A stretch of DNA of 48,332 bases from a virus. Positions 2,566-16,432 of the stretch are shown piece by piece; position 1 is the stretch's first letter; each line of letters opens with the position of its first letter. The translations under genes were made by a program, and so were the position numbers. The notes under the pieces are model-generated. The model did no database searches and was not told the DNA's origin. It saw only the letters and a program-made list of their open reading frames with translations. Location of the stretch: the IMG/VR virus record IMGVR_UViG_3300034198_018550, positions 1-48,332 of that record; one strand, written 5' to 3'.

Positions 2566-3216
2566 TCAAAGGTTATTTAGGAAATCATTGAACAGATTTA
2601 ATTTCTGTTCCTCAAGTCTTCTTTGATCAACTAAAGTATTGATGCGCTTTTGTGTTTGACGTGCTTGCTTTTCACGCAAAATTGATCCTTCCCAAACCCA
2701 CTCTTTACCTTCCATGATTCCCTGAACAAAAGCATCAGGTGCAGAAGGATCGGCAACAATATCAGCTGCAGTTGCAAGCATGAAATCTTCGCCAACTTCC
2801 ATGTAACCATCACGATGTCTAGATACTGAACCAATACCACGAGAAGAAACTCCGAGAGTTACTCCTTCTTTCAGAAGTGACTCTGCAATCTTACCCATAG
2901 GGGTAGAAAGAATCTGTGCTTTACCAATAAAATTGTTTCCTTCTTGTGTCAAAGAAATAATTTTATGGGAAACACGATCAAGGTTTACTGTTGGTCCATC
3001 TGGATGACCTAACTCTCCAAGAGCACGACCCTTATCAATATAAGAATCGCTGTATCTCTTAACCTCACGCTCCATTACAGATCTACGATATACTCTACCG
3101 TTGCGATTCTGTTGTTCGGTTTGGAGGAAAGGACCTTGAATGTAAAGAGTTTTTTTACCGTTTACTGTTTCGGTAATAACTTCTACTGATTCAATTTCTT
3201 CTGTGATAAGTTTCAT
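2566..3216 (-). CDS. 21: Prohead core protein protease gp21
   Basis: This 216-residue serine protease digests the scaffold and trims capsid proteins in the prohead. Visible catalytic candidates are His71 in GELGHPDG, Ser124/Ser125 in LGVSSRG, and an Asp in ADIVADPSAP near residue 156. These match the T4 gp21 (family S80) pattern. I chose the ATG at 3214-3216 (MKLITEEIESVEV) instead of an in-frame ATG at 3285, because the longer form would run 68 bases into the upstream gene and its extra residues look like read-through of another frame. The upstream gene stops at 3218, leaving a one-base gap, so translational coupling is likely. Length is close to T4 gp21 (212). Confidence 0.95.
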   Translation of the reverse strand: MKLITEEIESVEVITETVNGKKTLYIQGPFLQTEQQNRNGRVYRRSVMEREVKRYSDSYIDKGRALGELGHPDGPTVNLDRVSHKIISLTQEGNNFIGKAQILSTPMGKIAESLLKEGVTLGVSSRGIGSVSRHRDGYMEVGEDFMLATAADIVADPSAPDAFVQGIMEGKEWVWEGSILREKQARQTQKRINTLVDQRRLEEQKLNLFNDFLNNL

Positions 3217-10526: not shown

Positions 10527-11801
10527 CTACCTTTGTTCAATCCAGTTCAATACTGCAAGTGCTGCTTTGTTGCTATTTGGAGATGCACAAGCAAGTGTAT
10601 AAGTATCGCTGATTGTTCCAATACCACTTCTACCCAACTGAAGTGCTGCCTTATCATCAATATTAATCAATGCTGCACCACCCCCAACAACAAATCCATT
10701 TAACAAAGTAGTTCCGCCAGTCGTTGCAGTTTGCGTAATATTGTATTGCATAAAGGAGTTTGGGTCTGGATGATCTACCCAAGTTCCACCCGTATTTGTT
10801 GCATTCTCAAGAAGTTTCCAATATACATTTGTATTATCATTCGTTGCTGCCTGTAGAGATCTCAAAAGCATCACTGCAGATAATTCATCAGATTTTAAAC
10901 GAATACTTACAATAGGATAAAATGTGTTTGCAGATGTCATCGTTGTCCCCGTAATGGGATTTGCGATACTTACAAGAGTTCCAAGTTTCTCTGGTTCTCC
11001 TTCCTGAATAAGAGAATTAGAACCTTGATAAAGATAGTGAGTTCCCGCAACACCAGTTACATTTTCAATCTCAAGACGAATGGGAAGGAATGGAGTAGAA
11101 CACCATACTTTATCTTGAATATTTGAATTATCAAAAGTATGACTTTTAATTGTTTCACCTTTCATTAACCAATTAAAATCTACTGTTCCTGCACCATACC
11201 ACTCATAATTAATAGAAATCATCTGTTGTTTTGTTGGGTCTGCGACTACACCAGACCAACCATTACCATCAAACTTTTCACCATTCCAATCATCTCTACT
11301 AACTCTTACTTCTGTAGTAATACCTGATGTTGAAGTGCGAATTACATAAGAATATGTCCCTCCGTCATCCTCAAAATAAGCACCATTATAATCATCAAAC
11401 AATCCAAATCTTCTGCGAATACCTACCTTTGGTTGTTCTAACCGAACTGCAAACGCCAATGTTGCTGGTCTTCCAGGAATGTATCTCATTACATTCTTGG
11501 TCTGTCTGATGACTTTACTTCCTGCAGTAGAACCAACTTGCATGATTACATTACTAGCAGAAACATTATGAGTTGCAGTTCCAACTCCAACGATTCTCTC
11601 ATCCCAAACATCAGTTTCTTTACCATACTGAAAAGTATTAAAGAATACTGTTTGAAAAGGAGCAACTTTTAGTCTGTTATTGTTGGAAAACTGAGGCCTC
11701 CAGTCCGTTTGGTTTCCCCAATGATCTGCTATATTAAAAACCTCAAAAAGACTTCTTTCTTGATTTAGAAAGTCTTGTTCAACTTTATTCCACTGTGCCA
11801 T
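10527..11801 (-). CDS. Probable virion structural protein (424 aa)
   Basis: This 424-residue, Trp/Tyr/Asn-rich, beta-predicted protein starts MAQWNKVEQDFLNQERSLFE. Its core includes RYIPGRPATLAFAVRLEQ and RRRFGLFDDYNGAYFEDDGG, which resemble a receptor-binding or lectin-like beta sandwich in composition. I cannot name a family. There is no signal peptide or membrane segment. It is tightly packed between the 102-residue gene (3-base gap) and gp17 (5-base gap), so it is almost certainly in the late operon. A structural or appendage role is the best inference. I recall similar proteins as unassigned structural proteins in marine myoviruses, but this is memory, not a search result. Confidence 0.75.
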   Translation of the reverse strand: MAQWNKVEQDFLNQERSLFEVFNIADHWGNQTDWRPQFSNNNRLKVAPFQTVFFNTFQYGKETDVWDERIVGVGTATHNVSASNVIMQVGSTAGSKVIRQTKNVMRYIPGRPATLAFAVRLEQPKVGIRRRFGLFDDYNGAYFEDDGGTYSYVIRTSTSGITTEVRVSRDDWNGEKFDGNGWSGVVADPTKQQMISINYEWYGAGTVDFNWLMKGETIKSHTFDNSNIQDKVWCSTPFLPIRLEIENVTGVAGTHYLYQGSNSLIQEGEPEKLGTLVSIANPITGTTMTSANTFYPIVSIRLKSDELSAVMLLRSLQAATNDNTNVYWKLLENATNTGGTWVDHPDPNSFMQYNITQTATTGGTTLLNGFVVGGGAALINIDDKAALQLGRSGIGTISDTYTLACASPNSNKAALAVLNWIEQR

Positions 11802-11804
11802 TAA

Positions 11805-12113
11805 TTATTCACTCCAACTCAATCTTTCTGGTTGATATCTTTGTACGTTTTTGATTCTAGAAGTGTTTTGCTGAGAAGGATAAATGTTATGAACTATCGC
11901 TCCTGGATACTCTCCCTGAATTTGTTCTGCAAGTTTATTTTTAGAGAGCATACTACCCTCCACTTCTAAACGATAGATCTTCCCTTCCCAAACAATATCG
12001 GCAAAGAATGACTCTTGTGTTTGTTCTGGTTGAGAAGAACCTACATTTAGAGTACCATTAAAATCACCATTAATAGTGATACTTTCTGATAAAAATTCTT
12101 TGAATGATTTCAT
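11805..12113 (-). CDS. Putative capsid-targeted internal protein (102 aa)
   Basis: The N-terminus MKSFKEFLSESITI closely matches the capsid-targeting sequence of T4 internal proteins (IPI-III and Alt begin MKTYQEFIAE). The LSE at residues 8-10 fits the gp21 cleavage consensus (Leu/Ile-x-Glu). After this leader the rest forms a small alpha/beta domain with DIVWEGKIYRLEV and a later EYPGAIVHNIYPS. The same domain recurs near the C-terminus of the neighbouring 656-residue protein (WRGKYYGIKMFF and KVYPGSKVNSYY). I infer a protein loaded into the prohead and possibly injected with the DNA. The function of the folded domain is unknown. It starts two bases from the stop of the 656-residue gene. Confidence 0.7.
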   Translation of the reverse strand: MKSFKEFLSESITINGDFNGTLNVGSSQPEQTQESFFADIVWEGKIYRLEVEGSMLSKNKLAEQIQGEYPGAIVHNIYPSQQNTSRIKNVQRYQPERLSWSE

Positions 12114-12114
12114 T

Positions 12115-14085
12115 TTAGTTACAGTTCCAACGACGAAGGGCTTTGTTGATTCTTGAATCTGGATCTCTTGAAGTTTCTGCAGAAGTCAATCTCTTCTTCA
12201 TACCTTTCATTCTGCTACAGAATGATTTGCGACGTGCTGCTCTTTTTCCTTCGGGATTCTTTTCAGTAACCGCAGTTTGAAGTTTTGAACCTGGATTCTC
12301 ACGACGATATGCATCAACTGCTTTTTGACTCAAACCGTCAGTCTTATCTTGACGATTAACTTTTTGCCAATCTTCTATTTGCAAAAACTGTTCACCTGGT
12401 TTGATATCGGAGATATAGTATGAATTGACTTTAGAACCTGGATATACCTTTTCAATTTGATCCTGAACTTCTTTTCTACTTGGTTTAGTAACCTGTGGGA
12501 AGAACATCTTAATTCCGTAGTACTTACCTCTCCAAGTAAGAGTTACTAAAATGATATTTCCCGTTTTTGAAGGAATGCGAACCGCTTCCTCTACTTTTTT
12601 AATTGGATCTGGTTTAATCAGATCAATTACTTCTGCAAAGGTATTTCCATTTGCGTCCTCAATCGTCTCTTCTTTTTTAACACAGTTTGGATATCTTTTA
12701 CCAAACATAGTCTTCATACCTTTCTTTTCATACCCAGGCCAACATTTTTCATCAAGTTCTAATTCTTCCTTCTTAGTCTTATTGCCCCAATTTGCAGCAC
12801 CAACTTTGCGACACTTTACAAGTGCTCCAGATGCATATGCAGATGGCCAAACTTTATAACGCGACTTTACTTTTGAATAGCAAGCATCTTTTTCACCCGC
12901 TGCTTCTTCAATATCAATTTCATCACCAACTTCAATATTGTTCTCTTCAAACCAACCCCTATTTACTTCCAAAGCGCAGATGACTTCTCCATCAGAAGAG
13001 ACCGGAGTTTCATTGAATGGTTCTAATTCCTTGATACTCTCAATAATCCCCTCTTCATTAATAAAAGCAATATCAAGGGGAATTCTAGTTTCGGTCATAT
13101 GGAAAGATTGCTTAGCAACCTCATCAAAGATAAACAGCATTCCACTATTTTGTTCGAGACTCTCTCTAAACATCAATCCGAGATTGAAGTCTCTAATATT
13201 TGTTGGAATCTCAATATGTAATGGAAGAATAGTATATTCTACTTTCATTTCTCCACTATCTACATAATCCGCAGCAGAATCGAGATAATCTGCTGCTTTA
13301 GTGATCTTTGACTGTACCCATGCTTCAACTTCACCCTCACCCTTCTTCATTTTCTTTCTAAGTCTCTTTGCAGCATCCATTACTGTAGAAAGCTGTGAAC
13401 GAGCCATGGAATATTCATGATCTTTTAAAGATGCTTCAGAAAAACCCTTAACAGTCATTTTGTCCCACATTTCAGGACCATATGAGCACTCACCTCTTGT
13501 TTCCATCTTTTTGCATTTAGTGCAATAACGGACTTCTTCTTTTGCTTCTGTTTTCACGTTAATTGCTGCTCCTTTTCTTTCTGGATTTGGATCTTTACGA
13601 TTCTTGCGACGGAATGCTGCTTCTTCTTCGCCCTTATCAAGATCGCGCTTCATTTTACTTGAACCGCACTTTGGTTTGGTTGTTTGTCCTGGTTGTTTTG
13701 CACAGGGTTTTCCTGCGTATTTACCACCCAACTGAACCCAACCAGGGGTGCCATCAGAAGCGCGACTCTTAGTAAACCAGTCATGCAGAGAATCATCACC
13801 ACTCTTCGTCTCTTCGTAGGCGAGACCTCTTTTAGTATGTTTAAGTTCACCTTTTTGCTTCGCAATTAATTTTTTAGATAAAGCACCTACATCAACACCT
13901 GTTGGATTTTCATCTGGAGTTTTCTTTTTGGGATTATCATAAACATCTACATCCCCATCAGCATCCCGATCAACATATTGAACTGTTGAGTGATGGACCA
14001 ACTGCTTTAGGTCTAGATTGGGATCCAACTGATGTTGTTTTCCTTTTAGATGAGGTGTTTTATGAGAAAACTTTTGGTATTTCAT
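12115..14085 (-). CDS. Mosaic Cys-rich basic protein with DUF192 domain (656 aa)
   Basis: Several modules are visible in order. An EF-hand-like loop DRDADGDVDVYD is at residues 39-50. A Trp/Cys module with DWFTKSRASDGTPGWVQLGG (about 92-145) resembles DUF5872. A CxxC zinc knuckle, YCTKCKKMETRGEC, lies near 190-205. Next is a helical domain with DHEYSMARSQLSTVMDAAKR (about 220-275). A DUF192 domain (about 280-395) has GLMFRESLEQNSGMLFIFDE and TRIPLDIAFINEEG. A second Cys module, CYSKVKSRYKVWPSAYASGA, is near 405-440, followed by CWPGYEKKG. A WxGK domain shared with the 102-residue protein (about 510-585) and an Arg/Lys-rich Cys tail complete it. The ATG overlaps the 51-residue gene as ATGA. 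Neither enzyme activity nor virion location is shown. An internal-head protein is one possibility. Confidence 0.8.
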   Translation of the reverse strand: MKYQKFSHKTPHLKGKQHQLDPNLDLKQLVHHSTVQYVDRDADGDVDVYDNPKKKTPDENPTGVDVGALSKKLIAKQKGELKHTKRGLAYEETKSGDDSLHDWFTKSRASDGTPGWVQLGGKYAGKPCAKQPGQTTKPKCGSSKMKRDLDKGEEEAAFRRKNRKDPNPERKGAAINVKTEAKEEVRYCTKCKKMETRGECSYGPEMWDKMTVKGFSEASLKDHEYSMARSQLSTVMDAAKRLRKKMKKGEGEVEAWVQSKITKAADYLDSAADYVDSGEMKVEYTILPLHIEIPTNIRDFNLGLMFRESLEQNSGMLFIFDEVAKQSFHMTETRIPLDIAFINEEGIIESIKELEPFNETPVSSDGEVICALEVNRGWFEENNIEVGDEIDIEEAAGEKDACYSKVKSRYKVWPSAYASGALVKCRKVGAANWGNKTKKEELELDEKCWPGYEKKGMKTMFGKRYPNCVKKEETIEDANGNTFAEVIDLIKPDPIKKVEEAVRIPSKTGNIILVTLTWRGKYYGIKMFFPQVTKPSRKEVQDQIEKVYPGSKVNSYYISDIKPGEQFLQIEDWQKVNRQDKTDGLSQKAVDAYRRENPGSKLQTAVTEKNPEGKRAARRKSFCSRMKGMKKRLTSAETSRDPDSRINKALRRWNCN

Positions 14086-14237
14086 TCAACTGATTTTGAT
14101 TTAGTTTCTTCACCTTTTGCTCTTTTTCTTCTCGCTGCACAATGAGCACGTTGAGAAAAACCTTTTGGGTTTGAGCAATCAATACTCTTTTTATATTTAT
14201 TACTCCACTCTTCTTGAAACTGCTTAAAAGTTTTCAT
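14082..14237 (-). CDS. Small basic Cys protein with capsid-targeting-like N-terminus (51 aa)
   Basis: The 51-residue product starts MKTFKQFQEEWSNKYKKS, which resembles the T4 capsid-targeting pattern MK-x-aromatic-x-E/Q-F, though less exactly than the 102-residue neighbour. The second half (DCSNPKGFSQRAHCAARRKR) is strongly basic with two Cys and resembles basic Cys modules in the adjacent 656-residue protein. Both ends overlap neighbours as ATGA: its start overlaps the stop of the 732-residue gene and its stop overlaps the start of the 656-residue gene. Tight translational coupling is therefore likely. A nucleic-acid-binding protein packaged in the head is plausible but not demonstrated. Confidence 0.7.
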   Translation of the reverse strand: MKTFKQFQEEWSNKYKKSIDCSNPKGFSQRAHCAARRKRAKGEETKSKSVE

Positions 14238-16432
14238 ACTTCTATTGCAGTAAAAACAACTTTGAAAGTAGTATCACTGGCAAATGCTGGATGACCAAGT
14301 AGACGTAATGCTCCACCACTAATATCTGTTGAGAATGTTGCAATTCCTATCGGTTGATTGATGGTTCCATATTCAGTCATGTATGTAGTTGATCCATCAT
14401 GAATTACATTGATGGTAGTCATATTATAGTTTGTTCCTTCTGTTACTTGAACTTGATAATTGACTGATCTGTAGATTGAAGCACTTATAGACATAACAAC
14501 TGCTGGACCTAATCCAGATGTTGTTAAAATGCCAGACTGAATATCACCTGCAATCAATTCTAAGTTTGATGCAGATACTGGGGCAAAAGTAAATTCGCTT
14601 GTTGATGCGTTATATCTTAAAAATCTACCATCACCCAGATTTGTGCTGTCAACATCACTCAAGCCAACAAGAGTTGAAGATCCACCACTTAAAGCAGTGC
14701 TTGCAATTCCAACCCAGTTAGTTCCATTAAAAATTAAAAGTTTGTTTTGACCTGTACTTTCATCAAAACTAACATCAGCAAGATCCTTTACAAATCCAGC
14801 ACCGCCACCACCGATGCTTGCAAGTTGCATCTGGACCCTATTAATAAAAATTCTATAGTGGTCCTGTAAGTCTTTAAGAGTTACATAATCTTTGTTTAGT
14901 GGAGTTAGTGGATCTGAATTTTTTGTTGAAGGTGGATCTGTAAGATCTTCTGTTAAGAGTTTTTTCTCGTCAAACTTTTCTAAAATTGATTCTAGGTGAG
15001 AAATTTTCTCCAAAAGTTGGTTATTTTTCTTCTCAATATCATCAATTTTAATTTTTGATAGAGTTTCTTTTAGAGTATTCTTTGCATCTTGAATATGCTT
15101 TTCATTTCTAACAAAGTTAATCTCTAAGTCTTTTACTTTGTCTAAAATATTCTGCTCAAAATACCCAACTTCATTTTTCAGAATATCATAGTATTTTGTT
15201 GTACTAATATCCAAATTACTTTGAAGATCACTAACATCTTTAGTCAGATTTTCTTCTAAGTTCGTTATTTTTTCCGAAAAGATGTCAAGTCTATCTGAAT
15301 ACTTTTCGAGTTTTTTATTCTCACTTATCTCTCTATTTTTAAAATCCTTATATAAGTTCTCATATGTATTTGATATAGAAGATATTTGATTTTTTGATTC
15401 AGATATAAAAGATTCTATCTCAGAGATTTTAGAATTTAAAGTCTCATCAATAGTATCTTTTTCCAGATTTACTTTTTTTTCTAAATCTAAAACAGTCTGA
15501 TTGACCTTTAAAATATTATTTTCAATATTTTCAGTCAGTCTCTTAATATCATTTTCATTCTTAAGAGAAGACTCTACTAGTATATTTCTATACTTTGGAA
15601 TTTCTGAATTTATAAAATTATCTAACTGTTCCTTTATATCATTAATTCTAGATTGATGGTTCGATTCAATCTCCTTGTGCAAAGTTTCAATATAGTTTTT
15701 TGATTCGGATAATCTTTTCTCTGTTTTTGATTCCGTTTCTGCAAAAAACTTTTTATATTTTGGTAATTCTTTCTTTAGTGTATAATTTAGTTTATCTTCT
15801 ATTGAAGAAATATTTTCTTTAATTTCAAAAAGACTATTTTGGTTTATACCATGGACAGTCTCTGTAATTGATAAAAGTTTATGTGATATTTCGTCATTAA
15901 TTCTTTCTACTTCAAGATCTAATGATTTTTTGTAATCAAGAAACCTTTCATCAATTCTAATTTCTGACTGAGATACGGAACTCTTGATCTTTGGAGCTTC
16001 TACACTTAAAAAATCTTCAATTATTTCTGATAATGCTGTAAACTCTTCCTTAATATCTAAAAGAGTCTTCGAATTCAAATATTTTATATTATTCTGTACA
16101 TTTTTTATAGATTCTTCAACAAAAAATAATTGAGACACCATAGCATTATCAAGATCTTCTCTCTTGATGCAACTATCAATTTCTTCCTTTAGTAAGTCTA
16201 TGCCCTGAGATAGATCATCTATCCTTTCAATGCTTGACTTGAATCCATCAATATTATTAGTAAATTCGGTTAGTGACTGTATATTACTTAGATTGTATTT
16301 GAAGACATCAAATGCTTCTGTTAATTTTTCTATCTTTTCTGGAGCTGCAGAATTTAACTCCTCATTAACAACGTCAAGAGAATTTTTAGAACTAATATCA
16401 TTAAAAAATTCTGAGGGTTTTCTTAGTGGCAC
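14234..16432 (-). CDS. Long coiled-coil fibre-like structural protein (732 aa)
   Basis: Residues about 1-510 are almost continuous charged helix with heptad spacing (Lys/Glu/Ile/Leu/Asn-rich), predicted to be a long, probably trimeric, coiled coil. A Gly run (IGGGGAGF) then leads into a compact beta C-terminus with LIFNGTNWVGIAS and LSDVDSTNLGDGRFLRYN, followed by a terminal beta domain with VIHDGSTTYMTEYG (near residue 680). That terminal domain is related to three copies in the gp7-like protein. The layout resembles a fibritin-like whisker or a tail fibre, but I see no specific fibritin similarity. The start is GTG at 16430-16432 (first residues MPLRKPSEFFND). A late-type promoter lies at 16463-16470. 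The gene starts the insert between gp16 and gp17. Confidence 0.8.
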   Translation of the reverse strand: MPLRKPSEFFNDISSKNSLDVVNEELNSAAPEKIEKLTEAFDVFKYNLSNIQSLTEFTNNIDGFKSSIERIDDLSQGIDLLKEEIDSCIKREDLDNAMVSQLFFVEESIKNVQNNIKYLNSKTLLDIKEEFTALSEIIEDFLSVEAPKIKSSVSQSEIRIDERFLDYKKSLDLEVERINDEISHKLLSITETVHGINQNSLFEIKENISSIEDKLNYTLKKELPKYKKFFAETESKTEKRLSESKNYIETLHKEIESNHQSRINDIKEQLDNFINSEIPKYRNILVESSLKNENDIKRLTENIENNILKVNQTVLDLEKKVNLEKDTIDETLNSKISEIESFISESKNQISSISNTYENLYKDFKNREISENKKLEKYSDRLDIFSEKITNLEENLTKDVSDLQSNLDISTTKYYDILKNEVGYFEQNILDKVKDLEINFVRNEKHIQDAKNTLKETLSKIKIDDIEKKNNQLLEKISHLESILEKFDEKKLLTEDLTDPPSTKNSDPLTPLNKDYVTLKDLQDHYRIFINRVQMQLASIGGGGAGFVKDLADVSFDESTGQNKLLIFNGTNWVGIASTALSGGSSTLVGLSDVDSTNLGDGRFLRYNASTSEFTFAPVSASNLELIAGDIQSGILTTSGLGPAVVMSISASIYRSVNYQVQVTEGTNYNMTTINVIHDGSTTYMTEYGTINQPIGIATFSTDISGGALRLLGHPAFASDTTFKVVFTAIEV

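Follow-up and report, generated by a model that had tools for sequence, protein, structure and literature searches.

A T4-type capsid-targeting leader predicted on a small conserved cyanophage protein and present on virion-associated cyanophage enzymes

Capsid-targeting leaders of T4 and the P0001 gene

The closest described systems are the internal proteins IPI, IPII and IPIII of phage T4, together with the T4 head protein Alt. The leader of IPIII acts in targeting mainly through residues 4 and 7 and in processing through residues 8 and 10, and the T4 prohead protease gp21 cuts after L/I-x-E (PMC9026906). IPII and IPIII both start with MKTYQEFIAE, and IPI, which starts MKTFKEFTST..., fits only the targeting half. 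Alt, a large ADP-ribosyltransferase, has an N-terminal propeptide that is cut by gp21 (PMC9026906), as we predict for the protein described below, but its start MELITELFDE is different. In cyanomyoviruses several packaged enzymes (NMNAT, kinases and SAM hydrolase) are already known from virion proteomics, and the accessible portions of those papers do not mention a targeting leader. A search of the freely readable literature found no paper applying the T4 capsid-targeting leader to cyanophages.

The gene analyzed here, P0001, is located at 11805-12113 on the minus strand of the window, by which we mean the whole 48 kb virus record (48,332 nucleotides). It encodes a predicted precursor of 102 residues, whose sequence opens MKSFKEFLSESITI... 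and whose N-terminal part reads MKSFKEFLSESITINGDFNGTLNV. The protein is a full-length member of phrog_1742 (E 1e-41), a conserved family of unknown function, and a Pfam search with it gave no family. The relatives belong to T4-like cyanophages, most of them Synechococcus phages: matches were found in 135 of 50,697 phage records, the nearest being S-CAM9, S-8S56 and S-SKS1. S-RIM2 and S-RIM8 have homologues as well. The Syn33 homologue is annotated as hypothetical; the adjacent cluster GC 119 is tied by a note to an S-SM1 protein, a note that the homologue lacks.

P0001 is found inside a late head/tail cluster, all on one strand, with the order gp13-gp14-gp15-gp16, a 732-aa ORF, a 51-aa ORF, a 656-aa ORF, P0001, phrog_1645, gp17-gp18-gp19-gp20, gp21 and gp22, whereas the T4 internal proteins are encoded among early-region genes. 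The next gene downstream (10527-11801, minus) encodes a 424-aa virion structural protein of phrog_1645, whose counterpart _190 in S-SZBM1 was detected by mass spectrometry. The predicted cleavage enzyme is also encoded in the window, as the first-pass annotation had stated: a gp21 prohead protease (2566-3216, minus; phrog_207, E 2e-82) with an ATG start at MKLITEE.... It is accompanied by the predicted docking partner, a head scaffold of the gp22 type (1393-2502, minus; phrog_237, E 9e-115). The late-promoter word CTAAATA does not adjoin the P0001 gene, which neither supports nor contradicts a late expression within an operon. The 732-aa ORF (14234-16432), with a GTG start, has a long coiled-coil-like N-terminal part, and its C-terminal half gives tail-fibre-like matches.

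The leader MKSFKEFLSE (12084-12113, minus) is followed directly by SITI, and the predicted gp21 cut is placed between positions 12084 and 12083. It contains F4, F7, L8 and E10, which are all the residues tied by T4 mutagenesis to targeting or processing. P0001 therefore shares with the T4 internal proteins aromatic residues at 4 and 7, a hydrophobic residue at 8 and E10, and like them it is small and comes from a phage of the gp21 and gp22 head type. The first-pass annotation had compared MKSFKEFLSE to a T4 leader common to the internal proteins and Alt; the comparison holds for IPII and IPIII and partly for IPI, while Alt has to be removed as a carrier in view of its own start. That LSE at residues 8-10 fits the gp21 rule was borne out, with E10 invariant in the family.

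An alignment of 34 family members shows no variation at M1, K2, F7 and E10; F or Y occupies position 4, and L, M or I position 8, the M of some homologues falling outside the strict L/I rule. These leader positions are kept even in the remotest of the 34, which share only some 39-43% identity with P0001. Every IMG/VR homologue examined has the leader, but the leader was among the search patterns, so this is not independent evidence. Nothing beyond the leader resembles IPI, IPII or IPIII. The mature protein would be acidic (pI about 5.1), in contrast to the basic T4 proteins, and the residue after the cut (P1') is S, whereas it is mostly A in NMNAT and in the T4 internal proteins, which counts against the explanation that we prefer below. 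P0001 is a candidate cargo protein. On the basis of these comparisons we take its leader to be a genuine T4-type capsid-targeting sequence, a known kind of signal.

Occurrence of the leader outside the P0001 family

For quantification of the leader pattern we used a rule built from the functional positions, M[KRQN]x[FYW]xx[FYW][LIVMF]xE, which is based on T4 but was widened (Q/N at position 2, LIVMF at position 8) once cyanophage examples were known. Applied to 100 kb of T4, it matches 2 of 925 methionines, exactly IPII and IPIII. In a sample consisting of the complete S-SCSM1, S-SZBM1 and S-CREM2 genomes, 150 kb of S-CAM9 and the window, it matches 9 of 1,561 ORF starts against 0.04 expected by shuffling residues 2-21, and none of the 4,288 internal methionines in the same sample. 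Of 20 cyanophage records, 18 contain matches to a degenerate DNA version of the rule, 36 in all, and the reversed pattern gave none in the same 20. Most of these records were chosen because they contain a relative of P0001 or of NMNAT, and the 36 matches include both families, but the zero control is unaffected. It is clear from these results that the leader occurs non-randomly and is a real signal, and conservation specific to one family is ruled out as its cause, the leader being common to unrelated proteins.

When the leader was sought on other genes of the same phage, as had been proposed, a second one, overlooked in the first-pass annotation, was found. This 51-aa gene (14237-14082, minus) encodes MKTFKQFQEE-WSNKYKKSIDCSNPKGFSQRAHC..., a protein that is strongly basic beyond its leader (pI about 10); its QEE site is without L/I, making cleavage there less sure. 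The gene is separate and small in many relatives, and in other relatives its basic segment opens the large DUF6321 protein as MGWSEKYKKSIDC, without the leader. The separation of the 51-aa and 656-aa ORFs recurs in many independent contigs, which rules out a frameshift or an assembly error as its source. Several tiny proteins also start with the leader, and so does a SAM-lyase-like protein, for which PF23780 is just below the cut-off in contig L283 and clearly above it in S-CREM2 gp6. Judged from these gene arrangements, the leader is modular.

Other carriers were seen as well. One is a 66-aa protein (contig L287, 1330-1530, minus) that starts with the leader MKSFQEFLSE and scores above the cut-off for PF01355, the high-potential iron-sulfur protein (HiPIP) family. 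Two further proteins (L267, 1813-2463, and L285, 1501-1965) have the leaders MKTFSEFIAEA and MKTFQEFIAEA, which are nearly those of T4 IPII and IPIII themselves. In the protein with MKTFQEFIAEA, residues 1-26 match phrog_2667, annotated as 'internal head protein' (E 0.006). By eye the motifs of both look ADP-ribosyltransferase-like, and neither matches a Pfam family. Roughly 35 residues with the pattern AxxxGLxxDGHGxWYDxxGxxVAxTxxGxLxFY follow the leader directly in an otherwise unrelated NMNAT, APH-like kinase and Cas9-annotated protein, and in NMNAT this segment matches phrog_3561. Its carriers are S-CREM2 gp12 and gp14 (L177, 7704-10313 and 10579-12846), S-SCSM1_91 (L169, 38819-40048) and an ORF in L273 (1093-1530), and it could serve as a second module for packaging.

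The leader was compared with the published virion proteomes of three cyanophages. In S-CREM2 all four annotated proteins that carry the rule are listed as virion proteins (PMC10665884, Table 3): the SAM lyase gp6 (MKDFDSFLEE), the APH-like kinase gp14 (MKRFDAFLTE, GTG start), gp136 (MQTFSMFFSE) and the cytidylyltransferase gp154 (MKNFSSFLTE). The same list includes gp13 (MKDLHSFLTE) and the Cas9-annotated gp12, where RFASFMAEA stands slightly inside the protein. In S-SCSM1 the NMNAT SSCSM1_91 (MKSFLQFLKE) is a virion protein (PMC9602691); here the virion proteins were taken from the labels in GenBank record MK867354.2, in which 48 CDS are so labelled by our own count, against 45 stated in that paper. 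In S-SZBM1 the cytidylyltransferase _140 was detected, with a leader one residue shorter (MRFRQFIIEA), and the DUF6321 protein _192, with the leader MKTFKQYITE, is absent from the virion list (PMC9146016, Table 1). With the strict rule, 5 of the 8 rule-bearing proteins of the three phages were detected versus 1.5 expected (P = 0.008), and for S-CREM2 alone 4 of 4 (P = 0.003); since the test rests on eight proteins and the rule was widened post hoc, these P values are indicative only. The S-CREM2 authors state that contamination could not be excluded for enzymes in cyanophage virions (PMC10665884).

The NMNAT/cytidylyltransferase family (phrog_395; S-SCSM1_91, S-SZBM1_140, S-CREM2 gp154) is present in the same phages with a leader practically identical to that of P0001 (MKSFLQFLKEA, MKNFSSFLTEA) followed by a different protein. 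Unlike P0001, this enzyme has been found repeatedly in virions, in S-SCSM1, S-SZBM1 and S-CREM2, and a cytidylyltransferase has been found in S-SM1. The leader thus precedes a repeatedly detected virion enzyme. As an independent check we used 80 contigs found by the catalytic part of NMNAT without its leader. The full leader is present at a possible start codon in 72 of them; most of the remainder carry a close variant (for example MKSLLQFLSEA), while in two the contig ends before the start. The major capsid protein of S-SCSM1 reads SFLAE/A near residue 58, where T4 gp23 has SFLTE/A (the slash marks the cleavage point, a putative one in S-SCSM1), which suggests from sequence that the cyanophage protease retains the T4 specificity. 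The coincidence of the leader with virion-associated cyanophage enzymes is of more interest than P0001 alone.

Predicted fate and folded domain of P0001

Above we described a leader with the functional residues of T4 IPIII (F4, F7, L8, E10) kept in the P0001 family, the gp21 and gp22 genes in the window, the enrichment of the rule, rule-bearing virion proteins, the NMNAT leader and the S-SCSM1 capsid site. For these reasons the best explanation, to which we give roughly an even chance, is that a genuine leader docks P0001 on the scaffold, that gp21 cuts after LSE10 and that the product is kept in the head. Residues 1-10, amphipathic and including F4 and F7, would be the short segment that docks on the gp22-type scaffold during assembly of the prohead core. 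Cleavage would then release a 92-residue protein beginning SITI..., with a flexible linker and a ββαβ domain, present inside the head in low copy number, and the mature protein may leave the head with the DNA. These steps of docking, cleavage, retention and ejection we infer for P0001 itself.

AlphaFold2 models, built on window and contig sequences only, are consistent with such an architecture. Two models agree on a folded ββαβ core at residues 34-80 (11874-12014, minus; pLDDT 74-89 in blocks), joined to the leader by a low-confidence linker at residues 9-32. A domain related to this core lies at about 12349-12552, within the 656-aa DUF192/DUF6321 protein encoded next to P0001 (12115-14085, minus), and S-CAM9 gp160 has one at its N-terminus. 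Because of this related domain the simplest guess is that the DUF6321 protein and P0001 share a partner in the head. In the 656-aa protein of the head gene cluster the DUF192 domain (E 5e-26) is situated between the P0001-like domain and basic segments.

The reading of the first-pass annotation, of a protein loaded into the prohead, trimmed and perhaps injected, is partly supported: in its favor is a leader that is T4-like, conserved and shared with virion proteins; against it, P0001 homologues are missing from two proteomes. Neither SSCSM1_30 of S-SCSM1 (MKTFKQFMSE) nor _191 of S-SZBM1 is among the virion proteins labelled in the GenBank record of the former (PMC9602691) or listed for the latter (PMC9146016, Table 1), although both proteomes do list NMNAT and proteins of 61-112 aa and P0001 gives ordinary tryptic peptides. 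S-CREM1 has a homologue as well, but only 14 proteins were detected in that phage. The non-detection may fit a small, possibly low-copy protein and does not prove that it is absent, but P0001 can be regarded neither as an established virion protein nor as an abundant one.

The same non-detection would be expected if P0001 were consumed as a prohead-core protein or assembly cofactor, imported by its leader and then degraded or expelled at maturation like T4 gp67, gp68 and gp22. Such a fate, which we consider unlikely but the most serious competitor, would also agree with the position of the gene in the head cluster, with the related domain in the adjacent DUF6321 protein, and with a further L-x-E (LAE63) in the core helix, whose E63 is nearly always kept. 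T4 core proteins, on the other hand, have many cleavage sites and acidic helices, whereas the P0001 core looks stably folded in the models and has a single fitting internal site, and low copy number may be all that the non-detection means. The best reading at present is a probably cleavable leader on a small protein with a predicted ββαβ fold that serves either as low-copy internal cargo or as a consumed component of the prohead core.

It is less probable still that the leader is an N-terminal helix unrelated to the T4 signal and kept for some other function, such as binding to a tail or packaging protein, and that P0001 never enters the prohead. Short motifs can converge, and the mass spectrometry results would agree with this too, but the ten-residue pattern starts unrelated proteins, several of them in virions, it is absent at internal methionines, and in the models the leader is tied to the core only through the low-confidence stretch.

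The fold gave one lead to a function. With either model, the top PDB match in Foldseek was T7 Gp2, an inhibitor of the host RNA polymerase with a small ββαβ fold (prob 0.99, TM 0.65-0.66 on the target, E 0.15-0.16), the RNAP-interacting YkzG was among the next PDB matches, and several T7-like RNAP inhibitors were among the viral structure library matches. The profile-profile comparison does not support homology (hhalign against the Gp2 profile, probability 0.2-0.3%), nor do pairwise shuffles against three Gp2 members (z -1.4, 4.6 and -1.0) or a PDB sequence search. R56 and R58, in strand 3, are essential in T7 Gp2 (PMC3541766). A by-eye alignment on GxxVxxVxP places N76 and Y78 of P0001 opposite these two RNA-polymerase-binding arginines. 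The Gp2-like fold is therefore a lead only, resting on a weak match. It is very improbable, despite these fold matches, that P0001 travels in the virion and, once ejected, binds the RNA polymerase of the host in Gp2 fashion as infection begins, in a role like that of T4 Alt, since chance matches at such E values are expected for a small domain, no profile or sequence relation was found and the essential arginines are replaced.

Implications for cyanophage cargo

The widest view would be that cyanophages run a T4-type targeting and cleavage system loading a wide and exchangeable cargo, and that the Gp2-like domain of an ejected P0001 acts on host transcription; we hold this to be a long shot. 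If it were true, the cargo would comprise NMNAT, SAM lyase, kinase and possibly the HiPIP and ADP-ribosyltransferase-like proteins, and P0001 would act in the first minutes of infection as the cyanophage counterpart, in role, of T4 Alt. Apart from that view, a leader that tracks virion association would provide a physical reason for the packaging of enzymes, and it permits the listing of candidate cargo of an abundant group of marine viruses, including proteins that proteomics may have missed.
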